A stretch of DNA of 64,000 nt. Source: Paraburkholderia azotifigens (GTDB lineage Bacteria > Pseudomonadota > Gammaproteobacteria > Burkholderiales > Burkholderiaceae). The notes beneath the pieces were generated by a model that saw only the letters and a list, made by a program, of their open reading frames with translations, was not told where the DNA came from and did no database searches. Every line of letters begins with the position of its first letter. Positions within the stretch are counted from its first letter, which is position 1. The stretch spans positions 2,294,001 to 2,358,000 of the forward strand of contig NZ_VOQS01000003.1 of NCBI RefSeq assembly GCF_007995085.1. Reading direction: 5' to 3'. The translations under genes were made by a program, and so were the position numbers. Positions 3,230 to 44,817 of the stretch are shown in pieces.

Positions 3230-3850
3230 ATGATGACTTCCGGCACGCAACTCGATCCACGACAGACCGCGCTCATCATCGTCGATCTGCAAAACGACTT
3301 TGTGAGCGAAGGCGGCGCCTATCATCGCGGCGGCGCGGCGTCCGACGCGGCGCGCGCATTGCCGCTGCGCGTGGCGCCCGTGGCTCGCGTGCTCAAGCAA
3401 CGAGGCGGCTTTGTCGCGGCAAGCCAGTTCACGTTATGGCCCGACGCCCAGGGTGAGCCGATGATCTCGCCGCATCTCAGGCAACTGCGCCCGTTCCTGC
3501 GTCGAGGTGACTTTGTCGCTGGGTCGAACGGTCACGCGACGGTCGCCGCACTCGACGATATGGTCGATGTGTCGGTGTGGAAAGTCGCGTATTCCGCGTT
3601 CTTCAACACGCAGCTCGACTGGGTGTTGCGTCGCGCGGGCATCGAGGTCGTGGCGATCTGCGGCATCGTCACCAACGGCGGCGTGGCGAGCACCGCGCGC
3701 GACGCGCATATGCGCGACTATCGCGTGCTCGTTTTGGGCGACGGTTGCGCGGCATCGACGCAAGCAGCGCACGACGCGGCGCTTGCCGATCTTTGCACGG
3801 TCGGCGAGGTGACGACGTGCGAGGCTTTCCAGGGACGCCTTGGCGCCTGA
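3230..3850 (+). CDS. Isochorismatase-family cysteine hydrolase (probable amidase)
   Basis: 206 residues, the usual size for the family. The catalytic triad can be placed at Asp19 (IIVDLQNDF), Lys118 (SVWKVAYSAFF) and Cys144 (CGIVTNGGV), as in N-carbamoylsarcosine amidase, nicotinamidase-like and maleamate amidohydrolases. The start has two adjacent ATGs behind a GAGAGA ribosome site, 9 bp after hyuA. In this operon it most plausibly hydrolyses the carbamoyl or amide product made by the HyuAB ring-opening enzyme; that role is inference. It is not an isochorismatase by context, as no siderophore genes are nearby. Confidence 0.85.
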   Translation: MMTSGTQLDPRQTALIIVDLQNDFVSEGGAYHRGGAASDAARALPLRVAPVARVLKQRGGFVAASQFTLWPDAQGEPMISPHLRQLRPFLRRGDFVAGSNGHATVAALDDMVDVSVWKVAYSAFFNTQLDWVLRRAGIEVVAICGIVTNGGVASTARDAHMRDYRVLVLGDGCAASTQAAHDAALADLCTVGEVTTCEAFQGRLGA

Positions 3851-5733: not shown

Positions 5734-6086
5734 TCAGCGCTGGGTGACGGCGGCGAATGCCACCGCGATCGACAGCGCGATCACGATGGTTGAGTGTCCG
5801 AGCGAGAAGAAGAATCCCACGGCTACGGGCCGTTTGCCGCTTTGCATCAGCTTGCGGGTTGTATTGTCGATTGCGGCGATGTGGTCTGCGTAGACTGCGT
5901 GTCGCAAGCCGAATGTGTAAGCGAGCAATGCGGTCCCGGGCAGTGCCGGGCGGCCGTGCAGTGCAGTCAGTGCCCGGATCCAGACGCCGACATGGCGGCA
6001 ATGAGCAATGAAAAGATTCCGACGATCTTGCCGCGTAGCGCGTGTGGTCTGTCATCGACCAGATTGGAAAGGAAACGCTGTTGCAT
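5734..6086 (-). pseudogene. hoxN: Truncated, frameshifted nickel/cobalt transporter (NiCoT, HoxN/NixA type)
   Basis: The N-terminus from an ATG at 6086 reads MQQRFLSNLVDDRPHALRG and then falls out of frame near 5960-5970. The frame ending at 5734 continues with LLAYTFGLRHAVYADHIAAI and FFFSLGHSTIVIALSIAVAF, the signature helices of NiCoT permeases. The first His-Asp motif, normally HAVDADH, reads HAVYADH here, so a metal-site Asp is also lost. Only about 100 of roughly 340 residues remain before a stop. The gene is clearly dead, but its cobalamin riboswitch survives directly upstream, which suggests it once imported cobalt. Confidence 0.85.
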
Positions 6087-6505: not shown

Positions 6506-6694
6506 TTATCGCCGCGTACGCGAGCCTACGGCGCTCCGTGTTTTCCAGGTTACGCCGTGCTGCTCAAGGTAGTCTCTGATTAGCTGTCGCACCACCTGAG
6601 ACGGTGTCAGGTCCTGCGCGGCGCAGAGTTTCTCGAAGGCTTCTTTTTTTACAGGGTCGATCAGGACCGTCAGGCGGGCACTTTTCGTTTCCAT
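6506..6694 (-). CDS. Ribbon-helix-helix (CopG/MetJ-like) DNA-binding protein
   Basis: 62 residues. The beta strand SARLTVLIDPVKKEAFEKLC followed by a helix pair (TPSQVVRQLIRDYLEQHG) is the ribbon-helix-helix fold used by small repressors and antitoxins. The ATG is preceded by CCACCATGG-like sequence and an AT-rich stretch (6718-6740, TTAATCAAATTATAATAG) that probably holds the promoter. No toxin gene lies beside it, so it is more likely an orphan regulator than half of a toxin-antitoxin pair. Confidence 0.8.
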   Translation of the reverse strand: METKSARLTVLIDPVKKEAFEKLCAAQDLTPSQVVRQLIRDYLEQHGVTWKTRSAVGSRTRR

Positions 6695-6840
6695 GGTGGT
6701 AGGGACGTTTGGAACATGTTAATCAAATTATAATAGATTGTTCGTCCCCGCCACAGCAATCGATGTCGCCGTGCTCAAACGTCACCGGGATCAAGGTGCG
6801 CAGGTGGCGGTCCTGGCCGTCCAAAGGCACAGCAGCGGTG

Positions 6841-7068
6841 TCAGGTTTGCGCCCGGTCAAGGAGAAAATTTCGTCCCGCCTGAGTGAGCGACGTGGCTCC
6901 CCGCCCATTCTCCGAGACGGAGACGAGGCCGGCACGAATCAGTTCGTGCGTCACGGACCAGCTCAACGCCGGCGTATCGCGGCCGTAGCGCGGCTGGGAA
7001 AGGCGCTCGAGCGCCCAGATCGCGGCGTGGCTCAATGCGGCAGGTTGGACGTCAATGGGCTCGGTCAT
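6841..7068 (-). CDS. Small hypothetical protein, possibly winged-helix
   Basis: 75 residues with a strong ribosome site (AAGGAGGAGATATG), so the reading frame is very likely real. The sequence (AIWALERLSQ..., VTHELIRAGLVSVSENG, TSLTQAGRNFLL) has the helix-helix-wing rhythm of small winged-helix proteins, but I do not recognise a named family. It follows the spermidine-synthase-like gene by 68 bp on the same strand and may be the last gene of that operon. Confidence 0.65.
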   Translation of the reverse strand: MTEPIDVQPAALSHAAIWALERLSQPRYGRDTPALSWSVTHELIRAGLVSVSENGRGATSLTQAGRNFLLDRAQT

Positions 7069-7136
7069 ATCTCCTCCTTGTAACGATGCGGCTTGCGTTC
7101 GGGACGCGGGTGAATCGGGTTTTGCGAAAGGTTTGT

Positions 7137-7958
7137 TCAGGTTCCCGCGTTGGCAGCGCGCTCGTCCCAGTCGAGGCTTTTGCCGTACTCGATCCGTATT
7201 GCGGTTTCCTGTAAATTTAAAGGGTGCACGGTTTCAAGCACGCGCGCCCGCACAAGAGATTCATCCCGCGACAAACCTGCGGTCCGTCCCTTCCAGGCAA
7301 AAGCGATGACGTTATCGAGGCTGTCTTCTGCGGGCGCCAGAACGACTGCGTCGTTGAACGCATCCCTGACGGAACGAAGGCTGCGGCGGAAACCCGGATC
7401 GCTGATCATCAGATTGGCGACGAGCAGACCGCTATCAGCCAACTGGCGACGACACGCCGTATAGAACGCTCTGCTGCACAGTTCCGGAGCCATACCGTCT
7501 GCATTGAATCCATCAACGAGAAGGACGTCGGGACGGTGTTCGGAGGAAGTGACGTAGTGCGCACCATCCGCACAGATCACCTCGAACCGCTCGTCGTTCG
7601 GTGGTATCTGGAATCGCGAGCGCAGCGCGACCACTTCCGGATTGATTTCGACGACAGTGATGGCGGCATCCGGCAGATAACGATAGCAATACTTCGGAAG
7701 CGAGCCGCCACCCAGGCCGATGATCGAAATGCGGCGGGGTAAGGGCTGGAATAGCACGAAGCCCATCATCGTGCGCGTGTAGCCCAAAGCCAGAGCGTAC
7801 GGGTCGTGCGCAAACATGCAACTTTGCACACCCGTTGCGTCGAACTGCAGCGCGACGAGGCCGTCGCTGTGCACAAGCAACGGTCGCGTAGGGCGGTGGT
7901 GTGCCTGACTGAGGAAGCTTCCGCGATCGCTGGTGAGGCTGCCGGGTACTTCCGTCAT
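7137..7958 (-). CDS. Spermidine synthase-like (SpeE-type) protein
   Basis: 273 residues. The Rossmann SAM/dcSAM site reads IIGLGGGSLPKY (79-90) with an acidic residue at strand 2 (VVEINPEV), followed by VICADGAHYV and VLLVDGFNADG, as in polyamine synthases. It lacks the membrane N-terminus of some SpeE-like fusion proteins. The start ATG overlaps the stop of the HPr-like gene by ATGA, so the two are translationally coupled. Many such stand-alone proteins are methyltransferase-fold enzymes of unknown substrate, so true spermidine synthesis is not assured. Confidence 0.85.
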   Translation of the reverse strand: MTEVPGSLTSDRGSFLSQAHHRPTRPLLVHSDGLVALQFDATGVQSCMFAHDPYALALGYTRTMMGFVLFQPLPRRISIIGLGGGSLPKYCYRYLPDAAITVVEINPEVVALRSRFQIPPNDERFEVICADGAHYVTSSEHRPDVLLVDGFNADGMAPELCSRAFYTACRRQLADSGLLVANLMISDPGFRRSLRSVRDAFNDAVVLAPAEDSLDNVIAFAWKGRTAGLSRDESLVRARVLETVHPLNLQETAIRIEYGKSLDWDERAANAGT

Positions 7959-8248
7959 TGGATGTGCGACGACGCGTCCTGTGTTGATCTGTTCCCTGAT
8001 GCGCGCAGCACATCAGAAAGTATCCGCACCGCTGCACATTCATCCGGTCCTGTCGCCAGGATTCTGACGGGTGTGTCCCGTCTGGCCCGAAGCGACATGA
8101 CGGACATGACATCCTTGCCATTGACCGTGCGGCCATTTGCCACACAAACGATGTCGCTGGAAAATGCGGATGCCGCCAGCGCAAACCTCGCCGCTTCCTG
8201 CGCGTCGAGTCCCCGGTGATTTTCCACCCCGGTCAGCACGTCTACCAC
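7955..8248 (-). CDS. HPr-like phosphocarrier-fold protein lacking both phosphorylation sites
   Basis: 97 residues from a GTG with AGGAG 7 bases upstream; an ATG at 8368 would overlap the previous gene by 65 bp and is rejected. The fold matches HPr: NHRGLDAQEAARFALAASAF aligns with the loop normally reading GLHARPA, and NGRTVNGKDVMSVMSLRA aligns with the NGK-VNAKSIMGVMSL region. The PTS His15 is Asp here, its Arg and Pro neighbours are Gln and Glu, and the regulatory Ser46 position is also Asp. It therefore cannot be a normal PTS carrier; a Crh-like or binding role is inferred. Coupled to the SpeE-like gene. Confidence 0.82.
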   Translation of the reverse strand: MVDVLTGVENHRGLDAQEAARFALAASAFSSDIVCVANGRTVNGKDVMSVMSLRARRDTPVRILATGPDECAAVRILSDVLRASGNRSTQDASSHIQ

Positions 8249-8303
8249 CTCGTCTCTCCTGTATGCCTGTCCATCGCTCCCGTCTGAAGCGATCCGCCTG
8301 AAT

Positions 8304-8750
8304 TCAATGCAGATGTCGTCCGACAATGTCCGCGAGGAAATCCCGCAACTGTTCGTCCCATGCGCCACTGTCCAATGTCACGTTGGCGGTTCCCCCGAGG
8401 CGCATGCTGGCGTCAAGGTAGACCGCGCGCAAGGCTCGGGGCTGCAGCGGCCTGCGAAAGAACCGCCCGTCGCCGTCGAGGAACAGACACATCTTTCCCC
8501 GATACCGGGCTCCGCATATCGACATGGCGTCGAAAACGTGACGCGCCGACGCCTTCGGATAAACGAAGATGACACTGATTCCGTGGGCTTCGAGCCGGTC
8601 GCACATCTCCGAGAACCGATATAGCATCTGAAATCCGCGTTCTCCTGCCGTGCCGACGCCGACCACAATCACGCCGCGATCACCCATCACATCCCGCACA
8701 AGACGGCATGAATGGTCGTAAGACAACAGCGAAGCGCTCGGGTCAATCAC
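8304..8750 (-). CDS. Hypothetical protein, thioredoxin-fold-like, GTG start
   Basis: 148 residues from GTG at 8750 with AAGGA eight bases upstream. The order of strands (GVIVVGVGT, SVIFVYPKA, MCLFLDGDGRFF, RAVYLDAS) resembles a redoxin/peroxiredoxin core, but no CxxC or peroxidatic Cys is in the expected place, so catalytic redox function is doubtful. It is the first gene of the minus-strand group that continues with the HPr-like and SpeE-like genes (55-bp gap). A palindrome lies 121 bp upstream of its start. No named family recognised. Confidence 0.6.
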   Translation of the reverse strand: MIDPSASLLSYDHSCRLVRDVMGDRGVIVVGVGTAGERGFQMLYRFSEMCDRLEAHGISVIFVYPKASARHVFDAMSICGARYRGKMCLFLDGDGRFFRRPLQPRALRAVYLDASMRLGGTANVTLDSGAWDEQLRDFLADIVGRHLH

Positions 8751-8870: not shown

Positions 8871-8889
8871 ATGATAATAACATTATCAT
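8871..8889. promoter_or_regulatory. Palindromic operator candidate, copy 1
   Basis: ATGATAATAACATTATCAT is a perfect 8-3-8 inverted repeat in an otherwise GC-rich stretch, 121 bp upstream of the GTG-start gene at 8750. A second copy with two changes lies at 9848. It resembles a Fur/Zur-type element but its spacing differs from the standard Fur box (7-1-7). Confidence 0.6.
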
Positions 8890-9076: not shown

Positions 9077-9715
9077 TCATGTCACTCCGCTCGCGAAGAG
9101 GCACGCAAGCATGCCCGAGTGGACCTTCAATCGGTCCCGGTTGGCGAGTACGGGTTTCGCCCCCGGATCGTCCTTCGCTGCATTCCAGTAGACGAGCTTG
9201 CCCAGTTCGATGCCGATGTCCGCGACGATGCCTGTCATATGCGTGGAGCGGATTTCCGCGCCGGACAGCTTGGTGATCATCGCGTTCTGCAGACCCATGA
9301 TGAAGCACAGCAGCATGACAGTGGCCGGAACAAGCAAAGTGTCCCGCAGCGCCAGATGACTGCCGGGTAACCCGAAACACAGGAGCAGGGCCGCCGCGAG
9401 CAGAAGCGGAGAAGCATATTGGCTGTGCAGGCGCTGCCGGCGTCCCCAGTTGACCAGCACGGCCGAACAGGCAGCTCCCAGCAGGAATGATATGAGCGAG
9501 CCGACGCCGGCGTGCACCAGTGCGGCGTCGCCGAGTACCGTCTCGTCGGCGATTGAGGAGACCACGCCACTCATGTGCGAGGTGTACTGCCTGACCGCAA
9601 GATACCCACCAGCGTTGGCTGCGCCTGCGACGAATGCGAGTGAAAACCCGAGGCGTCTGTTCGCCTCTATGCTTCGGTCCCGTCCGGTCAGGGTTCGAAA
9701 GAACTGTGCGGGCAT
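9077..9715 (-). CDS. DUF1275 (YoaK-like) membrane protein, C-terminus cut by in-frame TGA
   Basis: 212 residues to the first stop. Features typical of DUF1275: FVAGAANAGGYLAVRQYTSHM near the N-terminus, MGLQNAMITKLSG and THMTGIVADIGIELG in the middle, with about six hydrophobic segments. After the TGA at 9077-9079 the same frame stays open to a TAA at 8945-8947 and encodes ALGLRHAGYAATIPLAGVL, ALAIMPLLDDL, which is the normal C-terminal helix of the family. A GGA-to-TGA change would explain it, so the gene may be a recent nonsense mutant that has lost about 44 residues. A palindrome 133 bp upstream may regulate it. Confidence 0.8.
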   Translation of the reverse strand: MPAQFFRTLTGRDRSIEANRRLGFSLAFVAGAANAGGYLAVRQYTSHMSGVVSSIADETVLGDAALVHAGVGSLISFLLGAACSAVLVNWGRRQRLHSQYASPLLLAAALLLCFGLPGSHLALRDTLLVPATVMLLCFIMGLQNAMITKLSGAEIRSTHMTGIVADIGIELGKLVYWNAAKDDPGAKPVLANRDRLKVHSGMLACLFASGVT

Positions 9716-9847: not shown

Positions 9848-9866
9848 ATGATAACGACATTATCAT
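9848..9866. promoter_or_regulatory. Palindromic operator candidate, copy 2
   Basis: ATGATAACGACATTATCAT, 17 of 19 identical to the copy at 8871. It lies between the divergent DUF1275 gene (start 9715) and the Hyf-like operon (start 10104), so it could act on either. The rest of the 388-bp gap shows nothing else that I can name. Confidence 0.55.
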
Positions 9867-10103
9867 GTTCTGATAACCGAATGTTCCTGATGCGGGCTCG
9901 GTATTTTCAGGCCCGAGATCCAGCGGAGAAATCCAATGCAGGGTGGGCTTGCGGCACACGCGCAGTTCCTTCAATCGAAGGGCAGGGCTGGGGAGCACTT
10001 CGAATCTATGGGCGCCGGGAGGCTTGCGGCTGAGATCGCCCGCAGATGCCGGGCCGACATCACGGCTAACTGGCGATAGGCGCATAAGAGCGTGTCGCGC
10101 GCG

Positions 10104-12113
10104 ATGACTTCTTTGCCCCTTCTCCAGATCGCACTGTTTGTGATCATAGGGTGGCTCGCGATCGGGACACTGGGGCTCGCCGGTCTGCGCCGCACTCGCT
10201 TGGTCGCGCACGGGCTGTTCCCGGCGGGAGCGCTGTTCGGCGTTCTGCTGTGCGCGCTGGGCATTGCCGGCGTGTTCTCCGCTCCGCAGGAGGCGGTCTT
10301 GCCACTGGGGTTGCCCGGGCTGCCGTTTCATGTGAGGCTCGATGGCCTGTCGGCGTACTTTCTTGCTGTGCTTGGCATGGTGAGCGCTGGCGTCAGCGCA
10401 TTCTCCGCCGGCTATTTCCGCAAAGGCGAAGGCACACCGCCCGGTTTGCTGTGCTTCGAATATCACGTGTGCCTGGCGGGCCTTGCACTCGTCCTCGTGG
10501 CAAACGATGCGTACTGCTTCATGGTTGCGTGGGAAACCATGACGCTCGCGGCAACGTTCCTCGTGATGAGCAACCATCGGATTCCCGAAATCCGCCACGC
10601 GGGTTACCTGTACTTCCTGATTTCGCACGTCGGCGCACTCGGCCTTCTGCTGTGTTTCGGCTTGCTGCAGGCGAACACGGGGGACTACACGTTTGCGGGC
10701 ATGCGGCAGCAGCACCTGGATGTGTTCTGGGCATCCGTTGCATTCGTGCTGGCGCTGTTCGGCTTTGGCGCGAAGGCGGGTATCTTCCCATTGCATGTGT
10801 GGCTGCCCGAGGCGCACCCGGCCGCTCCATCGCCGGTGTCGGCGCTGATGAGCGGCTTTGTGCTGAAGGCAGGGCTCTACGGCGTGTTGCGCACTGTGTT
10901 TGACCTGTTGCACGTGCAGATCGCATGGTGGGGCGTTCTGATGCTGGCGCTCGGCCTTTTCACCGCGTTGTTCGGCGTCGTGTTCAGCGCGATCCAGAGT
11001 GACATGAAGCGGCTGCTCGCCTACTCGTCGATCGACAACATCGGTCTGATGTTCGTCAGCATGGGGCTGGCAATCCTGTTCCGGGCGTTTGACATGCCGG
11101 CGCTCGCCGCGTTGTCGCTGACCGCGCTCCTTTACCAGATCGCGAGCCATGCGGCATTCAAGAGCCTGTTATTCATCACGACGGGTTCCGTGCTGCATGC
11201 AACGGGTGAACGTAACCTCGGTCGCCTGGGCGGACTCATTCGCTTCATGCCGTGGGCCACATGGGCTGCGCTGCTGGGCGCGCTATCGAGTGCGGGCCTG
11301 CCGCCATTAAGCGGGTTCGTCTCCGAATGGCTTCTGCTGCAGAGCTTCCTGTTCACACCGGGGCTGCCGGACCCGTTCCTGAACATGATCGTTCCGCTGG
11401 TCGCGGCGCTGATCGCGCTGGTCGCTGCGCTCGCGGGCTACACGATGGTCAAGTTCTTCGGCGTCATCTTTCTCGGGCAGCCACGCGAGGCGAAGCTCAG
11501 CAACGCTCGCGACGCCAGTCCCTGGGAGCGCGTCGGCTTTGTGTGGCTCACGGCAATGTGCCTGCTGCTCGGCTTGCTGCCGGTGCAGTTCGTGGCCGTG
11601 CTCGACCGCGTGACGCAGGCACTGATCGGCGCGGGCATCGGGCAGGCGGTCGCGCGCAATGGCTGGTTGCTGCTGGCGCCTACGAATATCGGACGCGCGA
11701 GTTACATGCCGTTGGTTTTTCTGCTGTTCTTCCTCGGTTGCTGTGCGCTTGCATGGATTCTCGTGCGTCGCCTGTATCACGGCCGGCTGCGCCGTGCGAT
11801 TCCGTGGGCGTGCGGGCATCCGTTCGTGACCGCGCGCATGCAGGACACGGCCGAAGGGTTCGGGCAGCCGATTCGCGAAATCTTTGCGCCGTTGTTCCGG
11901 ATCGAACGGCAGCTTCCTTCGCCGTTCGATGCACGTCCGGCATATCGCGTCGCGGTGACGGATCGCGCATGGAGGATGATTTACGAGCCGATCGCAAGCG
12001 CTGTCAGGCGTGTTGCGGCGCTGGCCGGGATGCTCCAGACGGGGCGCATCGCCATCTATCTGATGTATAGCTTCCTCGTGCTCATTGTTCTCCTGATGCT
12101 GGTGAGGCGATGA
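10104..12113 (+). CDS. hyfB: Hydrogenase-4-like subunit B (proton-translocating antiporter-type subunit)
   Basis: About 669 residues, a polytopic membrane protein of the NuoL/M/N-MrpA family, closest in order and length to HyfB/HycC. Conserved proton-channel motifs are visible: FMVAWETMTLAATFLV, GFGAKAGIFPLHVWLPEAHPAAPSPVSALMSG, AIQSDMKRLLAYSSIDNIG, and SAGLPPLSGFVSEWLLL. ATG at 10104 is preferred to the GTG at 10092. First gene of a tight operon (4-bp overlap with the next). In the complex it forms one of the membrane proton channels. A long antisense frame over its 5' half is a shadow. Confidence 0.93.
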   Translation: MTSLPLLQIALFVIIGWLAIGTLGLAGLRRTRLVAHGLFPAGALFGVLLCALGIAGVFSAPQEAVLPLGLPGLPFHVRLDGLSAYFLAVLGMVSAGVSAFSAGYFRKGEGTPPGLLCFEYHVCLAGLALVLVANDAYCFMVAWETMTLAATFLVMSNHRIPEIRHAGYLYFLISHVGALGLLLCFGLLQANTGDYTFAGMRQQHLDVFWASVAFVLALFGFGAKAGIFPLHVWLPEAHPAAPSPVSALMSGFVLKAGLYGVLRTVFDLLHVQIAWWGVLMLALGLFTALFGVVFSAIQSDMKRLLAYSSIDNIGLMFVSMGLAILFRAFDMPALAALSLTALLYQIASHAAFKSLLFITTGSVLHATGERNLGRLGGLIRFMPWATWAALLGALSSAGLPPLSGFVSEWLLLQSFLFTPGLPDPFLNMIVPLVAALIALVAALAGYTMVKFFGVIFLGQPREAKLSNARDASPWERVGFVWLTAMCLLLGLLPVQFVAVLDRVTQALIGAGIGQAVARNGWLLLAPTNIGRASYMPLVFLLFFLGCCALAWILVRRLYHGRLRRAIPWACGHPFVTARMQDTAEGFGQPIREIFAPLFRIERQLPSPFDARPAYRVAVTDRAWRMIYEPIASAVRRVAALAGMLQTGRIAIYLMYSFLVLIVLLMLVRR

Positions 12114-13060
12114 TCACATTCTCCGGATTCGTCTCCCAGACGCTCGAAATCCTGCTGGCTCTGGCGGCCGCTCCGCTGCTGACCGGATGGATCAACATGT
12201 GCCGCGCCTGGCTTCAGAACCGTCGCGCGCCTTCCGTCTGGCAACCGTACCGGACGCTTCACAAGCTGTTCAACAAGGAGTCGGTCGTCGCGCATCACGC
12301 GAGTCCCGTATTTCGCGGCGCGCCGTATGTGATCTGGGCCTGCATGACGCTCGCGAGCGCGATCGTGCCGACCCTGTCGACCGATCTGCCGCTGTCGCCT
12401 GCCGCCGATGCCATTGCGCTCGTTGGCCTTTTCGCGCTGGCGCGCGTGGCAATCTCGCTGGCTGCGATGGACGTCGGCACCGCGTTCGGTACGCTTGGCG
12501 CGCGGCGGGAGATGCTGGTCGGCTTTCTTGCGGAACCGGCTCTGCTGATGGTGCTGTTTTCCGCGTCGCTTATCACGCAGTCCACGCTGCTGACGCGCAT
12601 CGTCGAGACGCTGAGCCATCGGGAGCTCGCGATCTATCCGAGCCTCGCATTCGCGGGCATTGCGTTCACCATGGTGTCGCTCGCGGAGAACGCAAGGCTG
12701 CCCGTCGATAACCCGACTACGCATCTCGAACTGACGATGATCCACGAGGCGCTGATCCTGGAGTACTCTGGCCGGCATCTTGCGCTGCTGGAATGGGCAG
12801 CGAGCCTCAAGCTGTTCGCGTATTCGTGCATCGGTCTGGCGCTGTTCGTGCCGTGGGGCATTGCGCAAGCGGGCGATCCCGTCGCGCTGCTGCTCGCGAT
12901 ACCGGTGCTTGCCGTCAAGCTTGTCGTGGGCGGGGCGCTACTCGCCGTGGTGGAGACGACCAACGCGAAAATGCGCATCTTCCGGGTGCCGGAGTTTCTC
13001 GCCACCGCCTTCCTGCTCGCCGTCATCGGCATGCTTGTCCATTTTCTGCTGGGGGCGTGA
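12110..13060 (+). CDS. hyfC: Hydrogenase-4-like subunit C (NuoH-type membrane subunit)
   Basis: 316 residues, about eight membrane helices. Recognised by NuoH/HyfC features: RAPSVWQPYRTLHKLFNKE near the N-terminus (quinone-chamber/amphipathic region), GTAFGTLGARREMLVGFLAEP, and the acidic loop SLAENARLPVDNPTTHLELTM. This subunit anchors the peripheral arm to the membrane domain and forms the E-channel in complex I and group 4 hydrogenases. Its start overlaps hyfB by 4 bp and its stop abuts the next ATG, so expression is coupled. Confidence 0.93.
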   Translation: MITFSGFVSQTLEILLALAAAPLLTGWINMCRAWLQNRRAPSVWQPYRTLHKLFNKESVVAHHASPVFRGAPYVIWACMTLASAIVPTLSTDLPLSPAADAIALVGLFALARVAISLAAMDVGTAFGTLGARREMLVGFLAEPALLMVLFSASLITQSTLLTRIVETLSHRELAIYPSLAFAGIAFTMVSLAENARLPVDNPTTHLELTMIHEALILEYSGRHLALLEWAASLKLFAYSCIGLALFVPWGIAQAGDPVALLLAIPVLAVKLVVGGALLAVVETTNAKMRIFRVPEFLATAFLLAVIGMLVHFLLGA

Positions 13061-13729
13061 ATGCACGGTCTCCACGGTCTTTCGACTCAGATCATCAACC
13101 TTCTGGCCGCCGTCCTGCTGATGGTGTCGTTTGCGATGCTCAGCCAGCGACGGATCTTGTCACTGATTCACCTTTACACCGTGCAAGGTATTGCGCTCGT
13201 CGCGGCCAACCTCGTGCTGGGGTTCGTCACGCAGGACGTCCATCTTTACGTGTCGGGGATACTGACCCTGGTGCTCAAGGTCGGTCTGATCCCGTGGATT
13301 CTCTACAGGCTGGTGCAGCGCCTCAACGTGAAAACAGACGTCGAGACGCTGCTCAACATACCGACGACCCTGCTGATCGGGATCGTACTCGTCATCGTTG
13401 CGTTCAATGTGGCGGCGCCCATCAGCCAGCTTGCGTCCTCGGTTGCGCGCGGCACCCTCGGCATCGCGCTTGCCTGTGTCCTGTTGTCGTTCATGATGAT
13501 GATCACGCGTTCAAAGGCGCTACCGCAGGTCATCGGCTTCCTGTCGATGGAAAACGGGCTTTTCTTCGCGGCTGCGGCAGCGACGAATGGTATGCCGATG
13601 ATCGTCGAACTGGGTATCGGACTCGATGTTCTGGTCGGCATCCTGATCCTCGGCGTCTTCATGTTCCAGATTCGCGAGCAGTTCGACAGCCTGGACATTC
13701 ATCATCTGGAAAGGCTCAAGGATGACTGA
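13061..13729 (+). CDS. hyfE: Hydrogenase-4-like subunit E (NuoK-like)
   Basis: 222 residues with about seven hydrophobic helices, the usual HyfE size. The N-terminal part (LYTVQGIALVAANLVLGF...) and the C-terminal half (QVIGFLSMENGLFFAAAAAT, GMPMIVELGIGLDVLVGILI) match HyfE, which carries NuoK-like glutamates for proton transfer. ATG directly follows the hyfC TGA. Overlaps the next gene by 8 bp. Confidence 0.9.
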   Translation: MHGLHGLSTQIINLLAAVLLMVSFAMLSQRRILSLIHLYTVQGIALVAANLVLGFVTQDVHLYVSGILTLVLKVGLIPWILYRLVQRLNVKTDVETLLNIPTTLLIGIVLVIVAFNVAAPISQLASSVARGTLGIALACVLLSFMMMITRSKALPQVIGFLSMENGLFFAAAAATNGMPMIVELGIGLDVLVGILILGVFMFQIREQFDSLDIHHLERLKDD

Positions 13730-15182
13730 CACGTGGGTCCTGCTGCTCGTGTTCGGGATTCCGCTTCTCGCTGGCGGGTGCCTGGCGCTTGTCGGACAGC
13801 ATCGCCTGGCGCCGGACCTCAATGTCGGGTTCAGCTTTCTGACCTTCGCGGCCGCGACCTGTCTCGCCGCGCAGGCGGTGGAGCATGGGCCGACTTTTGC
13901 GCTGGGCAAGCTCTTTTTCGTCGATCCGCTCAATGTCTTTCTCGTTGCACTCACGGCGTTCGTCGGCTGGACGACCTCGGTCTTCTCGAAGCCGTACATG
14001 CGAATCGAACAGAGTCGCGGCAAGATGACGGCGGCGCGCATGCGGCTTTACCACAGCATGTACCAGCTATTCGTGTTCGCGATGCTGGTGGCGCTGCTCG
14101 CCAACAACGTCGGCATCCTGTGGGTCGCGATGGAGGCCGCCACGCTTGCGACCGTGTTGCTGGTGAGCGTCTATCGCACGGCAGCCAGTCTCGAAGCGGC
14201 CTGGAAATACTTCATTCTGTGCGGGGTTGGCATCGCACAGGCGCTTTTCGGCACGATCCTGCTTTATCTCGCGGCGAGCCGGCAGCTCAGCGGCGGCGAT
14301 GCGCTGCTCTGGAGCAGCCTGAGCGCCGTCAAGGGCCAACTCGATCCCACCATCATGTCGCTCGCGTTTGTGTTCCTTCTGATCGGCTACGGCACGAAGG
14401 TCGGCCTCGTGCCGATGCATAACTGGTTGCCGGACGCCCATGCCGAAGGCCCCACGCCTATTTCCGCCGTGCTCTCGGGCCTGCTGCTCAACGTGGCGCT
14501 GTATGCGGTGCTCCGCTGCAAGGTGCTGGCCGATGGGGCACTGCAAAACGGCCTGCCGGGACGGCTGCTGGTCGGGTTCGGACTGGTGTCGGTGCTGGTC
14601 GCAACGTTTTCGCTGTTGCGCCAGAAGGACGTCAAGCGACTGTTCTCGTATTCGTCGATCGAACACATGGGTTTGATGACATTCGCGTTTGGACTCGGCG
14701 GACCTGTTGCGACGTTCGCAGGTCTGCTGCACATGACCGTTCATTCGCTCGTCAAGTCGGCCATTTTCTTCGCCGTCGGGCATGCTGTGCAGAAAGCCCG
14801 CACGCAGATGATCGACGACATTCGCGGGCTGTTGCGTGTGAGCCCAACGGTTGGATGGGGCATGATGCTTGGGACACTCGCAATCCTCGGCATGCCGCCG
14901 TTCGGCGTCTTCGCGAGCGAGTTCCTGATCTTGACGACGGCAATCAGCGAACTGCCGTGGGCAACACCGTTTCTGCTGCTGGCGCTGGCCGTTGCTTTCG
15001 GGATCATTTTTGCGCGTGTGCAGCACATGGTTTTCGGCGAGACGACGGCGACAGCGCTCGAACATTCGCCAGCGCTGCTTCCTGTCTTCGTCCATCTGGG
15101 CCTCGGTCTGATGCTGGGGCTTTACATTCCGCCGTATCTTGCCACGTGGTACCGGCAGGCAGCGGCAATGATCGTCGGGTGA
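13722..15182 (+). CDS. hyfF: Hydrogenase-4-like subunit F (proton-translocating antiporter-type subunit)
   Basis: 486 residues, NuoN/M-like membrane subunit; about 14 helices. Motifs: WVAMEAATLATVLLVSVYRT, GYGTKVGLVPMHNWLPDAHAEGPTPISAVLSG, RQKDVKRLFSYSSIEHMGLM, MTVHSLVKSAIFFAVGHAVQ. These hold the glutamate, lysines and histidines of the antiporter-type proton path. No HyfD homologue is present between E and F, so the operon encodes two antiporter-type subunits (B and F) and not three as in E. coli hyf. Confidence 0.92.
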   Translation: MTDTWVLLLVFGIPLLAGGCLALVGQHRLAPDLNVGFSFLTFAAATCLAAQAVEHGPTFALGKLFFVDPLNVFLVALTAFVGWTTSVFSKPYMRIEQSRGKMTAARMRLYHSMYQLFVFAMLVALLANNVGILWVAMEAATLATVLLVSVYRTAASLEAAWKYFILCGVGIAQALFGTILLYLAASRQLSGGDALLWSSLSAVKGQLDPTIMSLAFVFLLIGYGTKVGLVPMHNWLPDAHAEGPTPISAVLSGLLLNVALYAVLRCKVLADGALQNGLPGRLLVGFGLVSVLVATFSLLRQKDVKRLFSYSSIEHMGLMTFAFGLGGPVATFAGLLHMTVHSLVKSAIFFAVGHAVQKARTQMIDDIRGLLRVSPTVGWGMMLGTLAILGMPPFGVFASEFLILTTAISELPWATPFLLLALAVAFGIIFARVQHMVFGETTATALEHSPALLPVFVHLGLGLMLGLYIPPYLATWYRQAAAMIVG

Positions 15183-15184
15183 CC

Positions 15185-16747
15185 ATGAAGATCAACGAAC
15201 TTGGACTCGCCGATGTGGTGCAGCTGTCATTGTTCACGGGCAAGGCCACCACGTTTCTCGCGCGAGCCGATGCGGCGGCCTGGGTTCACATCGCCGGCGC
15301 GATACGCGAGAAGGGCGGTCGACTGATCTCCTTGTGGGCGACGGAAGAGGCGACGGGCAGATTCGTTGCTTCAGCGGCCTATGCGCTGGAGGATGGCTTG
15401 CTATGGGTGCAACTGCCCATTTCCGGTGAACACGAAAACGGAGCGTACTATCCAGACCTGTCGGCGATTTTTCCATGCGCATCGCGCATGCAGCGTGCTG
15501 TCTACGATCTCCTCGGACTGCGCGCGACGGGCGCTGAAGACACGCGGCCATGGCTGAATCACGGCAACTGGCCGGCCGACTATTTTCCGCTGCAGAAACT
15601 GTCGTCTGGAAACGAGCGTTTCGAATCGCACGAAGCGGACTATCCATTTGTGCCCGTCACTGGCGATGGTGTTCATGAGATCGCGGTAGGGCCGATCCAT
15701 GCGGGCATCATCGAGCCGGGGCATTTTCGGTTCTCAGTCGTCGGCGAAAAGGTGCTGAGACTGGAGGAGCGACTCGGTTATACGCATCGAGGTATCGAGC
15801 GGCTGTTCGGGCAGACGCCGTTGCTGCTGGGCCATCGTCTGGCGGGACGAATTGCAGGCGATACGACAGTGGCGTTCTCATGGGCGTACTGCATGGCGGT
15901 CGAACGCGCGTTGAACGTCTTTGTGCCTCCTCGCGCGCAGTGGTTGCGGGCAGTGCTGCTCGAGCGTGAGCGCGTCGCGAATCATCTCGGCGATCTGGGT
16001 GCGCTCGGCAACGATGCAGGTTTCGCATTTGGGCTTGCGCAGTTCTCCCGGCTAAAGGAAAACTGGTTACGTCTGAACGGCAAGGTGTTCGGACACAGGC
16101 TCTTGATGGACCAGATTGTGCCTGGCGGCGTCGCGCGCGATCTGACGGCGGAACTCATCGGGAGTGTCGAGAGCCAGTGCGACCGGATCGAAGCCGAGGT
16201 CCGGACGATGCAGCGCATCTATGAGGAGCAGTCCGGGCTGCAGGACCGCTTTACGGGTGCAGGCAAGTTGACGGAGAACGTCGCGACGCACTTCAGTGTG
16301 TGCGGCATGGCGGCGCGGGCGAGCGGTCTGGCCATCGACGTACGCGTCAACCACCCGTACGCGCCGTATCACGAGGTCCGGCCTCGGATGATCTGCGACG
16401 ACCGGGGTGACGTGGCCGCACGCGTTGCTGTACGTTTCAACGAGGTCTACGAATCACTCAGGTTGATTCGCGAGTTCATCGACGGCCTGCCTGACGGTGA
16501 GATCGTCGCGCCGGTTGAAGTTGATCGTCCGCGAGCGTGCGGCGTCGGTTGGGTCGAAGGCTGGCGCGGAGATGTATTCGTTGCGCTTGAAACTGGCGAG
16601 AACGGAACCATCACGCGGTGCCACTGCCACGATCCCTCGTGGCAAAACTGGCCTGCGCTGGAGCACGCGATCATCGGCAATATCGTTCCTGATTTCCCGT
16701 TGATCAACAAGTCGTTCAATCTGAACTACGCGGGACACGATCTGTAA
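15185..16747 (+). CDS. hyfG: Hyf/Ehr large subunit (NuoC-NuoD fusion-like) without NiFe cysteines
   Basis: 520 residues: an N-terminal 30-kDa NuoC-like domain (about 1-150) followed by a NuoD/hydrogenase large-subunit domain (YTHRGIERLFG at 199-209, ERERVANHLGDLGAL at 260-274). In real group 4 NiFe hydrogenases two CxxC pairs bind the metal. Here the first site reads RIAGDTTVAF (222-231), like complex I, and the C-terminal site reads CHDPSWQNWP (481-490) in place of DPCxxC. All four cysteines are missing, so the protein cannot hold a NiFe centre. This fits the Ehr (energy-converting hydrogenase-related) complexes, whose electron partner is not established. Confidence 0.9.
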   Translation: MKINELGLADVVQLSLFTGKATTFLARADAAAWVHIAGAIREKGGRLISLWATEEATGRFVASAAYALEDGLLWVQLPISGEHENGAYYPDLSAIFPCASRMQRAVYDLLGLRATGAEDTRPWLNHGNWPADYFPLQKLSSGNERFESHEADYPFVPVTGDGVHEIAVGPIHAGIIEPGHFRFSVVGEKVLRLEERLGYTHRGIERLFGQTPLLLGHRLAGRIAGDTTVAFSWAYCMAVERALNVFVPPRAQWLRAVLLERERVANHLGDLGALGNDAGFAFGLAQFSRLKENWLRLNGKVFGHRLLMDQIVPGGVARDLTAELIGSVESQCDRIEAEVRTMQRIYEEQSGLQDRFTGAGKLTENVATHFSVCGMAARASGLAIDVRVNHPYAPYHEVRPRMICDDRGDVAARVAVRFNEVYESLRLIREFIDGLPDGEIVAPVEVDRPRACGVGWVEGWRGDVFVALETGENGTITRCHCHDPSWQNWPALEHAIIGNIVPDFPLINKSFNLNYAGHDL

Positions 16748-17274
16748 TGTGGCAACTGCTCAAACGCATCGTGCTGACGGATATTCCGGCCGAGGTGACT
16801 CCGGCTATCACCGATGAATGGCTGACCGGACATCAGCAGTTTCATCAGGAGATTCTCGATGTGGTTGGCCGCGCGCTTTGCATCCGGCAGATAGACGCCG
16901 GTTCCTGCAACGGATGCGAACTCGAAATCCATGCGCTGAACAACCCGTACTACAACATTGAGGGTCTCGGCATCAGGTTCGTTGCAAGTCCGCGTCACGC
17001 CGACATGCTGCTGGTCACAGGGCCGCTCACACTGAATATGAGGGAAGCCGTGCGGCGAGCGTGGGAGGCAACACCCCATCCCAAGCTGGTGGTTGCGGCG
17101 GGCGACTGCGCCTGTACGGGTGGTGTCTTCAAGGACAGTTATGCCGTCTGCGGCCCGCTGTCAGAACTGCTTCCGGTGGACGTCACCATACCCGGCTGTC
17201 CGCCAGCGCCGATCGACCTGTTGAGAGGCATTCTTACGGCGATACGTGGAAACCGAGGCGCGCTCGCGCCATGA
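16747..17274 (+). CDS. hyfI: Hyf/Ehr small subunit with [4Fe-4S] site (NuoB-like)
   Basis: 175 residues of the NADH:ubiquinone oxidoreductase 20-kDa/NuoB family. Cluster ligands are all present: Cys54 and Cys57 (GSCNGCELE), Cys121 in GDCACTGG and Cys151 in IPGCPP, so the N2-like [4Fe-4S] cluster is probably retained. The start overlaps the hyfG stop by one base (TAATG). No ferredoxin-like NuoI/HyfH or HyfA subunit is found in the operon, so this is the only iron-sulfur protein seen here. Confidence 0.92.
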   Translation: MWQLLKRIVLTDIPAEVTPAITDEWLTGHQQFHQEILDVVGRALCIRQIDAGSCNGCELEIHALNNPYYNIEGLGIRFVASPRHADMLLVTGPLTLNMREAVRRAWEATPHPKLVVAAGDCACTGGVFKDSYAVCGPLSELLPVDVTIPGCPPAPIDLLRGILTAIRGNRGALAP

Positions 17275-17302
17275 CTCTTGCGGGAGACAGGCTTTGGAGC
17301 GC

Positions 17303-17734
17303 GTGAAAGCAACCTGCAAGGCACTCGTGCGCCAGACATGGCCGCAACTTGTCACGTTTGCCGGGTATCTGGTCGCGATTGGAATGCGATTTCCGCGCTG
17401 GTTTGTCTTGCTGTCGGTCCTCGCCGTTGTGGCCGTCGTATGTATCGTCGGTCGCCAGCTTGGACCGGGAGATGAGCGAACGCATAGCGATCCATTTCTG
17501 GGGGCGGTTCTTGTTGGCAGCGGACTCGCGTCGATCGTCCTGACGTTGAAATGGTGGATAGTCGAAAAGGAGGCGCAGCTTGCGGCGGGCAGCCTCCTGT
17601 ATCTGGCTGGCCACGCCGAAGCCCCAGCCAATCCTGCGCTGGCGTGGACAAGTATCGTGACCCAGTGGGGTTCATGCGCTGTCTTTCTCGTCATTGCGTT
17701 GTTCTGGGCGATCCGGTGCAGTCGCACCGGTTGA
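17303..17734 (+). CDS. Hypothetical membrane protein
   Basis: About 143 residues with four hydrophobic segments (WFVLLSVLAVVAVVCIVG; DPFLGAVLVGSGLASIVLTL; LAAGSSLLYLAGHA-like; CAVFLVIALFWAIRC). I choose a GTG with a nearby GGAG; an upstream in-frame ATG at 17246 would overlap hyfI by 29 bp. It directly follows the Hyf-like operon on the same strand and may be co-transcribed. No named family recognised; a shadow frame on the other strand is not supported. Confidence 0.6.
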   Translation: MKATCKALVRQTWPQLVTFAGYLVAIGMRFPRWFVLLSVLAVVAVVCIVGRQLGPGDERTHSDPFLGAVLVGSGLASIVLTLKWWIVEKEAQLAAGSLLYLAGHAEAPANPALAWTSIVTQWGSCAVFLVIALFWAIRCSRTG

Positions 17735-42525: not shown

Positions 42526-44817
42526 ATGCCACGTCCGCTTCGCTCAGTCGAGCTTGTCCTGCTGGCCGCCTCGGCCGTAAGCCTCGTAACAGGCATTGTG
42601 TTCGCCGCGCTCGACGACGTCGCGCTCGCGCATGCACTGTGGGCCGTTGGAACCTTGCCCGTCCTGCTGGCGCTGCTGGTGTCGATCGTCAAGGCGCTGC
42701 AGCGGCATGAAGCAGGCGTCGATGTGCTCGCGCTGCTCGCCATCGGTTTCGCACTGGGGCTCAGCGAGTTCCTGACCGCCGCCGTGATCTCGCTGATGCT
42801 CGCGAGTGGACGAGCTCTCGAAGCGTACGCGCAGGAGCGGGCACGACGCGAAATGACCGCATTACTGAGCCGCGCTCCGCGTCATGCCAATCGCTTTGAG
42901 GGCGGTGAGTGGCGTCGCGTCGAACTGGATGCGGTACGTCCCGGCGATCGGCTGCTGGTACGAAGCGGCGATCTAGTTCCCGTCGACGGCTCGCTGATCG
43001 GCCACGCCCAACTGGACGAATCCACGCTCACGGGGGAATCCGTCATCCAGCAACGCTCACCCGGCGAACCGGTCAATAGCGGGGTCGTTAGTGTTGGTGC
43101 CGCCTTCGAGATGGTCGCTGCCGCGAGCGCGGCAGACAGTACGTTTGCCGGGATAGTCCGCATGGTGCAGTCGGCGCAGCGCGAGCGCAGTCCGGCAAGC
43201 CGTCTTGCTGATCGCTACGCGCTGTGGTTCGTGCTTGCAGCGCTTGCACTTGCCGCGGGTAGCTGGCTGATCTCCGGAGAAATCGCACGGGCGCTTGCTG
43301 TGCTTGTCGTTGCAACCCCGTGCCCACTGATTCTTGCAGTGCCTGTGGCCATTGTTTCCGGCATGTCGCGTTGCGCGAAACGAGGCGTGCTCGTCAAAGG
43401 TGGTGGTCCACTGGAGAGGCTCGCGCAAGCGAGCGTACTGTTCTTCGACAAAACGGGCACCCTGACGGGAGGGCAAGCGCGCCTCGTCGCAATCGAAGCA
43501 GGCATTGGCACCTCTCCCGAGACGGTTCTGCGCGTTGCCGCGTCGCTAGGCCAGGCGTCAGCACATGTCATATCCGAAGCGGTGACTGCGGCTGCACGCG
43601 GGCGCAAGCTCCCCCTGTCACTACCAACCCGCGTGGAGGAGCGACCCGGTGCTGGAGTTCAGGGAGAAGTGGATGGCCATATCGTCGCGATCGGTTCTTA
43701 CGATTTCGTATCATCGCTCGCAACGCCGGCGCCCTGGTGCGAAGCTTTTCTTCATCGCCTGACGTACGAGGGCGCCTCTGCTGTATTCGTCGGGGTCGAC
43801 GGTAACATGGTCGGTGCCCTGCAGATGGCGGATCAGATCCGGCTCGAAACGCCACGTGCGCTGCGGCTGCTGAAGCAGGAGGGCGTCAAACGGATCGTGA
43901 TGCTCACGGGCGACAGACGCGATGTAGCGGAAACGGTGGGGGCAATGCTGGGCGTCACGGAGGTGCGGCCTGAGCTATCACCCGCGGACAAGCTTGCAGC
44001 GATCCAGGCGGCACGCCGTGAAGGGCCAGTTGTCATGGTAGGCGATGGAATCAACGACGCTCCTGCGCTTGCGGCCGCTGATGTCGGCGTTGCGATGGGG
44101 GCACGAGGCGCGGCGGCGTCTTCAGAAGCAGCAGACGTGGTGCTGCTGGTCGACCGGCTGGATCGGCTTGTCGAGGGGTTTCGGGTGGCGAAACAGACGC
44201 GGCGGATCGCCGTCCAGAGCGTGATGGCGGGTATGGCGCTGTCGGTGTCGGCAATGGTGGTCGCCGCGTTCGGATTCCTGCCGCCCCTGTCGGGCGCGTT
44301 GCTTCAGGAGATCATTGATGTGGCCGTCATCGCGAACGCGCTGCGGGCCTTGAGGATTCGTTCGACAGCCATGACAGGCAGCCTTGCCCGTAGTGACGAG
44401 GACCGCCTGAAGACCGAGCATGTTGAACTTGGTCCAGTAGTCGGGCAGATCAGGGAGCTCGCGGACACACTGCCCGGTTTGCCGGGACCATCCGTCGCGG
44501 GCGCGCTCGCTAACATGAGCGATTTGCTGGCACACAAGCTCATCCCACATGAGCAGCGCGATGACCAGGAAGTGTATCCGGATCTTGCGCGCCTTCTCGG
44601 CGGAGAAGACCCGATGGCGGCGATGAGCGCCACGCACCGTGAAATTTTCCGGATCTCCCGTTTGCTTCAGCAAATGACGGAGACAGTGCCAGCCGAGGGA
44701 CCCGATGCAGAAAGCATCCGCGAATTCCAGCGTCTGCTGTACGGTCTCGATGCAATCGTACGCCTGCATTGTGCACAGGAAGAGGAACTCTTCCATACGC
44801 TTGCGGAAGGGGCGTAA
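42526..44817 (+). CDS. P1B-type metal ATPase with C-terminal hemerythrin domain (P1B-5-like)
   Basis: 763 residues. Actuator motif TGES (169-172), metal-channel motif TPCPL (264-268), phosphorylation site DKTGT (308-312), TGDRRDV and hinge GDGINDAPA. The last helix has QEIIDVAVIANALR (594-607), as in P1B-5 transporters. No N-terminal metal-binding domain. From about 620 a helical hemerythrin-like domain follows with His632, His675, His704, His748 and Glu753, a possible diiron site. P1B-5 pumps export Fe(II), Ni or Co and several carry such a tail, so O2- or iron-gated export is plausible. No good ribosome site seen before the ATG. Confidence 0.9.
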   Translation: MPRPLRSVELVLLAASAVSLVTGIVFAALDDVALAHALWAVGTLPVLLALLVSIVKALQRHEAGVDVLALLAIGFALGLSEFLTAAVISLMLASGRALEAYAQERARREMTALLSRAPRHANRFEGGEWRRVELDAVRPGDRLLVRSGDLVPVDGSLIGHAQLDESTLTGESVIQQRSPGEPVNSGVVSVGAAFEMVAAASAADSTFAGIVRMVQSAQRERSPASRLADRYALWFVLAALALAAGSWLISGEIARALAVLVVATPCPLILAVPVAIVSGMSRCAKRGVLVKGGGPLERLAQASVLFFDKTGTLTGGQARLVAIEAGIGTSPETVLRVAASLGQASAHVISEAVTAAARGRKLPLSLPTRVEERPGAGVQGEVDGHIVAIGSYDFVSSLATPAPWCEAFLHRLTYEGASAVFVGVDGNMVGALQMADQIRLETPRALRLLKQEGVKRIVMLTGDRRDVAETVGAMLGVTEVRPELSPADKLAAIQAARREGPVVMVGDGINDAPALAAADVGVAMGARGAAASSEAADVVLLVDRLDRLVEGFRVAKQTRRIAVQSVMAGMALSVSAMVVAAFGFLPPLSGALLQEIIDVAVIANALRALRIRSTAMTGSLARSDEDRLKTEHVELGPVVGQIRELADTLPGLPGPSVAGALANMSDLLAHKLIPHEQRDDQEVYPDLARLLGGEDPMAAMSATHREIFRISRLLQQMTETVPAEGPDAESIREFQRLLYGLDAIVRLHCAQEEELFHTLAEGA

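Follow-up and report, generated by a model that had tools for sequence, protein, structure and literature searches.

Energy-converting hydrogenase-related (Ehr) complexes, encoded by ehrABCDLS, are composed of NuoL-like, HyfE-like and formate-hydrogenlyase-subunit-4-like proteins together with a large and a small subunit, and they lack CxxC pairs (PMC6688271, PMC7894505, PMC10284858, PMC4378227 and PMC13194489, citing Coppi 2005 and Marreiros 2013). The passages of these papers considered here establish no function for Ehr. We analyzed a stretch of 64,000 nucleotides from Paraburkholderia azotifigens (positions 2294001-2358000 of contig NZ_VOQS01000003.1, in a genome of 9.70 Mb), hereafter the window, which carries an operon of this kind. 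Six co-directional genes in the order hyfB-C-E-F-G-I run on the forward strand from 10092 (GTG start) or 10104 (ATG start) to 17274, and adjacent genes overlap or are separated by at most 2 bp. By its parts, i.e., its composition and the missing NiFe ligands, the encoded complex is assigned to Ehr, the comparison with published EhrL being one of description. It differs from the Geobacter cluster GSU0739-45, whose seven locus numbers include two EhrA genes; the passages cited do not say which protein EhrD is. Passages of PMC8233155 describe a cassette of seven genes, six of them complex I-like, within a copper-resistance operon of Marinobacter atlanticus, with higher expression on an electrode at 160 mV; this cassette may be of the window type. 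Our results suggest, with a probability that we put at roughly 0.53, that the window complex is an ion pump of the complex I superfamily, driven by a redox reaction that involves no hydrogen chemistry and has a non-hydrogen substrate, and that a ribbon-helix-helix (RHH) protein is its controller.

The six products were matched to HyfB, HyfC, HyfE, HyfF, HyfG and HyfI with NCBIfam and Pfam profiles. The membrane arm consists of the NuoL-type antiporter-like HyfB (10092..12113, +; 673 amino acids, or starting from the alternative ATG; NCBIfam 'hydrogenase 4 subunit B', 904.7 bits, cut-off 667), the NuoH-type HyfC (12110..13060, +; 316 amino acids; Pfam NADHdh, E = 1e-33), the NuoK-type HyfE (13061..13729, +; 222 amino acids; NCBIfam hydrogenase 4 membrane subunit E at 3.8e-29, below the cut-off, and no Pfam match) and the NuoN-M-type antiporter-like HyfF (13722..15182, +; 486 amino acids; NCBIfam hydrogenase 4 subunit F, 907.4 bits, cut-off 543). 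The soluble arm consists of the NuoC+NuoD-like large subunit HyfG, or EhrL (15185..16747, +; 520 amino acids), and the small subunit HyfI, or EhrS (16747..17274, +; 175 amino acids; Pfam Oxidored_q6, E = 4e-32). The gene order was kept in 75 of 80 related loci, which are the best 80 by similarity rather than a random draw and, like the genomes used below, may include members of the same species. Four of the exceptions (L067, L071, L074 and L078) start at a contig end; in the fifth, L027, hyfBCEF were not found in the 5 kb preceding hyfG. L027, which is apparently the same as G019:C272, is a degraded Ehr copy in which the hyfG match starts only at residue ~97. P. xenovorans LB400 has two Ehr copies, L019 and L022. 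A second set of 27 loci came from the genus, order and class. Of these, 24 keep the gene order, L126 and L131 are truncated by a contig end, and L119 carries hyfG alone, an orphan EhrL gene (6691-8289, −) with no other Ehr subunit in the 16.5 kb fetched around it. Both the gene order and the absence of HyfA, HyfD and HyfH from the operon had been claimed in an earlier note made from the sequence, and both were borne out. The window together with the 80 and the 27 loci gave the 108 window-type sequences compared below.

HyfG carries no NiFe ligands. The cysteines C241, C244, C531 and C534 of HycE align with A224, T227, N514 and G517 of HyfG, and the number of cysteines at these four positions was zero in 98 of the 108 sequences, one in 10, and two or more in none. 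The earlier note, which had pointed to the loss of both cysteine pairs, placed the N-terminal one correctly at RIAGDT; its second stretch, CHDPSWQNWP, is the counterpart of CRAATYANWP in HycE and precedes the C-terminal pair, and the true ligand position is SFNLNYAGHDL (NLNYAG) at the end of HyfG. HyfG has no protease-removed C-terminal extension, its last residue falling in the alignment column of HycE R537. HypD, the sole Hyp protein searched for, was not found in the window genome, and the same search was positive in 4 of 14 control genomes, including E. coli; likewise, the NiFeSe_Hases profile detected no NiFe hydrogenase in the window genome and was positive in 5 of the 14 controls. Within the genus HypD is not linked to Ehr (5/11 Ehr-bearing versus 5/13 Ehr-less genomes). 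The large subunit itself gave two matches in the window genome, itself and a protein (29%) inside the ordinary nuo operon. Neither cysteines shifted elsewhere nor, as judged by HypD, dedicated maturation genes, which the note had named as possible refutations, were found, and its Ehr-like, non-hydrogenase reading holds.

As judged from the alignment, the former NiFe pocket has been rebuilt and has not decayed. Residues I176, E177, D226, N508, K509, Y515 and D519 of HyfG are identical in all 108 sequences. I176 and G225 (the latter in 107 of 108) align with His38 and Tyr87 (Thermus numbering), which we take to be the quinone residues of complex I. N512, present in 107 of the 108, aligns with the canopy Asp. 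That Asp is described as strictly conserved in a passage of PMC9474812. Since the quinone residues of complex I and the canopy Asp are replaced while the pocket is invariant, classical quinone chemistry is not supported. Of the two substrates proposed in the earlier note, quinone thus finds no support and a small carrier is possible. Relative to E. coli Hyd-3 and Hyd-4 (formate hydrogenlyases FHL-1 and FHL-2; HycE 7z0s), the window complex lacks the NiFe ligands, HyfA, HyfD and HyfH and the C-terminal tail, has Asn for the canopy Asp, and carries I176, D226 and K509 instead. An HxH motif, H480/H482, was considered as a universal metal site and ruled out, because His occurs in only 94 and 92 of the 108 sequences, respectively.

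The electron and ion paths were then compared residue by residue. HyfI retains the four conserved cysteines of one N2-type [4Fe-4S] site (C54, C57, C121 and C151), as previously claimed. In HyfB, E148, K228, K306, H353, K357 and E412 are kept in at least 95% of 97 sequences, and in HyfF, E138, K226, K305, H341, K345 and E400 are kept in at least 95% of 103. Comparison of the E-channel was based on eight HycD residues named in passages of PMC9474812. HyfC keeps five of them (R112, E134, E142, E193 and E213) in 97-100 of 100 sequences; Y102 is replaced by Gly or Ala, E199 mostly by Thr or Ala, and E201 by His (H205) in 100 of 100, which rules out a fully intact E-channel. The conserved residues of HyfB and HyfF and the five kept channel residues argue for the proton- or ion-pumping oxidoreductase that had been proposed, and the three changed residues argue against it; on balance, a working ion path is largely supported by these sequence comparisons.

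To learn how the two arms evolve, the window was compared with nine relatives. The ratio of nonsynonymous divergence (dN) in HyfG+HyfI to that in the four membrane subunits was 1.7-4.65 in all nine genomes, whereas the corresponding NuoBCD/NuoHJKLM ratio, which does not include NuoN, was 0.45-0.68 in all seven of these genomes that yielded the subunits. By dN, it is the soluble arm that evolves faster in Ehr and the membrane arm in complex I. The E. coli Hyc/Hyf paralogues follow the ordinary pattern (HycE/HyfG 70%, HycG/HyfI 62%, HycD/HyfC 52% and HycC/HyfB 40%), and one pair of another NiFe-less type follows the Ehr-like one (HyfG 71%, HyfH-I 73%, HyfB 77%, HyfF 80%, HyfC 91% and HyfE 92%). 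When synonymous divergence (dS) is taken into account the difference between the arms is smaller, and hyfB departs from it. Median dN/dS was 0.08-0.13 across all six hyf genes (hyfG 0.122; hyfI 0.113, from 7 pairs; hyfB 0.126; hyfC, hyfE and hyfF 0.078-0.084), and for nuo genes the values were 0.026 (nuoB), 0.044 (nuoD), 0.19 (nuoH), 0.122 (nuoL) and 0.112 (nuoM); dS is high in hyfG and hyfI, where two hyfI pairs were dropped, so that their dN/dS is rough. All six hyf genes are under purifying selection.

A candidate operator, recognized by its sequence pattern, lies between hyfB and a divergent DUF1275 gene: the palindrome ATGATAA-CGACA-TTATCAT at 9848..9866. A second exact copy (8871..8889) lies 120 bp upstream of a gene group that extends from 8750 to 7137. 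With up to one mismatch to ATGATAA-N5-TTATCAT, these are the only two sites in the 9.7-Mb genome. A further operator-like site with two mismatches (6716..6734) is found 21 bp upstream of a gene for a 62-amino acid RHH protein (6506..6694, −; Pfam RHH_9, E = 4e-22, 78.3 bits, cut-off 23.4), and occupies the same position in relatives. In the 700 bp upstream of hyfB the exact palindrome was present in 26 of 74 regions, and a version with up to three mismatches in 38 of 74 versus 0.4 in shuffles, which here and in the two comparisons below preserve single-base composition only; 7 of the 81 upstream regions, with a short hyfB or a short flank, were omitted from this count and from the FNR count given below. 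Among 40 relatives, exact palindromes occur in nine genomes, every one Ehr-bearing and of the genus, and each palindrome is on the contig that carries hyfG. They are absent from G010 and G023, which are Ehr-bearing members of the genus, from all 13 Ehr-less genomes of the genus, and from the six genomes in other families of the order that carry Ehr. The exact operator is still present, at 3834, in the degraded copy L027.

The RHH_9 protein shows a similar distribution, being present in 11/11 Ehr-bearing versus 1/13 Ehr-less (G018) genomes of the genus and, in other families, in two of six Ehr-bearing genomes (G033 and G034) and in no Ehr-less one. The Fisher values computed were 9.6e-6 and 4.2e-5, uncorrected for relatedness, and the genus sample comprises 24 genomes. 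The RHH gene lies near Ehr in 47 of the 80 loci, and an operator-like site (up to two mismatches) lies within 150 bp upstream of 46 of the 58 RHH copies in the fetched loci, with 0 expected from 580 shuffles. In G002, the RHH gene and the window-type operon are on different contigs. Taken together, the linkage makes it likely that the 62-amino acid protein is a dedicated regulator of the Ehr operon, and we infer that it binds the palindrome. The passages on published Ehr do not mention an RHH regulator or operator, and the literature matches do not contain 'ribbon-helix-helix', a weak negative since most subscription papers lay outside that search.

Other modes of control were considered. No FNR box points to low oxygen, which the earlier note had suggested for growth tests: over the 400 bp preceding the window hyfB, the closest match has four mismatches, and FNR-type control was rejected for this gene. 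Across the 74 upstream regions the FNR pattern was in weak excess (8 with one or two mismatches versus 3.4 in shuffles), and the sigma-54 pattern had no match. A link to the Burkholderia low-oxygen-activated locus was also dropped, as 'hydrogenase' does not occur among the literature matches listed. Upstream of hyfB, 5 of 18 gammaproteobacterial loci encode a helix-turn-helix (HTH) protein, instead of or besides the RHH protein; it is possibly another local regulator (e.g., L117 13365-13784, −, where the RHH gene was not found).

In the best-supported mechanism, a soluble electron donor would dock directly on HyfI, because neither NuoI/HyfH nor an NADH module is encoded in the operon; among the recurrent neighbours, too, no NuoI or NADH module was recognized. 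The single HyfI cluster would pass electrons to a small oxidised substrate in the rebuilt pocket, or work in the reverse direction, and E177 could act as proton donor on the hydrogenase-like β1-β2 loop. The reaction would drive H+ or Na+ pumping via HyfC-HyfE-HyfF-HyfB. Through ATGATAA-N5-TTATCAT, the RHH protein would control the hyf operon, its own gene and the gene group next to it. A more specific proposal, which we offer as tentative and consider rather doubtful, is that the pocket of D226, N508, K509, N512 and D519 binds a substrate other than H2 or quinone, in a separate energy-converting enzyme, and that the RHH protein is a dedicated repressor whose inducer is this substrate or a close signal.

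The redox-driven pump has to be weighed against other accounts of the same complex. With complex I (NuoBCD plus NuoHKLMN) the window complex shares subunit homology, antiporter-like subunits, one cluster only, at the N2 position, and an unextended C-terminus; it differs in that the operon lacks the NADH module and NuoI and that the constraint on the two arms is opposite by dN. The window complex might be a shortened complex I in which quinone is reduced in the old NiFe cavity, as in NuoD, with electrons from some donor. We consider this unlikely: the quinone His and Tyr positions are I176 and G225, and the canopy Asp has become Asn. The small subunit, in addition, has a CxxC; membrane-bound hydrogenases lack the consecutive Cys typical of complex I (passage of PMC9474812). 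The stronger constraint by dN on the membrane arm than on HyfG and HyfI in 9/9 genomes, opposite to Nuo, would fit an ion antiporter or pH-homeostasis device in which the soluble arm serves as a sensor or structural cap and does not turn over, and a pH role was suggested for ehrABCDLS in an acidophile (passage of PMC6688271). A structural cap would not, however, need the (near-)invariant pocket, proton-path residues and four cluster cysteines, and in dN/dS terms hyfB evolves no more slowly than hyfG, so that this account, too, seems improbable to us. An assembly of formate dehydrogenase and Ehr has been proposed for Riflemargulisbacteria/Saganbacteria and suggested for Geobacter, where Ehr subunits were more abundant on formate than in hydrogen-containing conditions (passages of PMC7894505); many Saganbacteria with Ehr have fdhA adjoining nuoE/F-like genes (passages of PMC6349859). 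For the window complex such an assembly has a small chance, since HyfA and HyfH are absent and no formate dehydrogenase was recognized among the recurrent Ehr neighbours, the rest of the genome not having been searched for one.

Geobacter Ehr is stated to be non-functional in a passage of PMC13194489, and a relic would agree with the degraded copy L027 and with the patchy occurrence of Ehr (11 of 24 genus genomes). The purifying selection in all six genes and the invariant pocket argue against that statement, the operator and regulator are conserved, and we regard a relic as very improbable here. Almost no weight is left for a NiFe hydrogenase with shifted ligands, which the database names 'hydrogenase 4' and 'hydrogenase large subunit' (partly also NADH-quinone oxidoreductase subunit C) would suggest, since none of the 108 sequences exceeds one cysteine at the ligand positions and neither HypD nor another NiFe hydrogenase was found in the genome. 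Several points also weigh against the redox-driven pump that we prefer. The faster dN of the soluble subunits is also compatible with a redox half of lesser importance; the HycD channel residues Y102, E199 and E201 (3/8) are not kept in HyfC; and no constant redox partner gene was recognized among the recurrent Ehr neighbours. In the AlphaFold monomer of HyfG, segments 153-194, 196-201 and 517-520 have a predicted local distance difference test (pLDDT) score below 50, and the pocket geometry is therefore unmodelled. The argument that the RHH protein binds DNA is one of linkage, and the literature passages considered do not show a donor, acceptor or ion of Ehr.

In a tree, the window type formed one clade (100/100) inside a single NiFe-less clade (99/97), a tree in which long branches are flagged and which includes no named EhrL. 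Two other NiFe-less types share this clade and differ in their pocket motifs; in L105, L106 and L133-L136 a HyfB-like gene lies beyond hyfI. One of them (L105 5341-12881, L106 5840-13249, L133 and L135) occurs in Paraburkholderia and other Gammaproteobacteria, and in L105 and L106 a single 269-amino acid gene spans HyfH- and HyfI-like matches and is adjoined by a gene that looks enolase-like by eye. The other (L107, L134 and L136) has yet another C-terminal pocket motif. MBS (presumably 6u8y_L) was rejected as the closest relative, as it scores below HycE, Nqo4, MBH and others by sequence; its name does not occur among the literature matches listed. By score, the window type was found in 22 of 140 gammaproteobacterial genomes sampled, including the window's own and one, G097, assigned by score alone; a 23rd match in this sample, G170, belongs to another type.

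Recurrent neighbours of Ehr were collected by two clusterings, one of open reading frames (ORFs) of at least 100 amino acids in the 80 loci and the window's first 30 kb (clusters in at least 8 of 81 stretches), and one of ORFs of at least 80 amino acids in 18 gammaproteobacterial loci (clusters in at least 4). Both missed the RHH gene because of these size and count cut-offs. Nine unclear clusters were scanned, giving PhnA/YjdM, ScpA, methionyl-tRNA synthetase, the HTH protein and five without a family, and the rest were judged by eye. Between the two exact operators lies the gene for the DUF1275 membrane protein, divergent from hyfB (9077..9715, −; Pfam PF06912, E = 4e-34; 36/80 loci). The first gene behind the operator at 8871 encodes a 148-amino acid protein with no Pfam or NCBIfam match over the cut-off (8304..8750, −; 33/80 loci), and is followed by genes for an HPr-like protein (7955..8368, −; Pfam PTS-HPr, E = 3.7e-17; 18/80 loci) and a spermidine-synthase-like protein (7137..7958, −; Pfam E = 6e-9; NCBIfam E = 4.8e-63, below the cut-off; 36/80 loci). 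The HPr-like protein has, by eye, Asp at what we take to be the positions of the phospho-His and regulatory Ser of HPr. Adjoining the RHH gene is a gene for a conserved 75-amino acid protein without a Pfam match (6841-7068, −; 18/80 loci). Also near the RHH gene, 5734-5928 (−) encodes a 64-amino acid HoxN/NixA-type nickel transporter fragment (TIGR00802, E = 6e-28, N-terminal part of the profile only), apparently a remnant in a genome where neither NiFe hydrogenase nor HypD was found, with no match in the fetched related loci at E 1e-5.

On the other side of the operon, the earlier note had suggested that a co-directional membrane gene at 17303 could encode an extra subunit. The gene exists as an ORF for a small membrane protein 3′ of hyfI (17246..17734, +), and is optional: it was found in 8 of the 80 loci, in 4/11 Ehr-bearing and 0/13 Ehr-less genus genomes. 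Wherever it was found in the 40 genomes searched, it follows Ehr, and it is missing in seven of the 11 Ehr-bearing genus genomes, including the nearest, G020, so that the data argue weakly for an extra subunit. Farther away in the window, 42526-44817 (+) encodes a P-type ATPase fused to a hemerythrin domain.

Ehr as a kind of complex was already known and is widespread (22 of the 140 gammaproteobacterial genomes sampled), yet it is without an established function in the passages cited. What is new here is the rebuilt invariant pocket, the inverted dN pattern, and the private operator with its candidate RHH regulator. To our knowledge, a dedicated regulator with a defined operator would be the first such handle on Ehr. 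Regulator and operator together would offer a way to find the inducing signal, and hence the function, and the invariant pocket, which argues against a non-functional Ehr, provides the residues to mutate.

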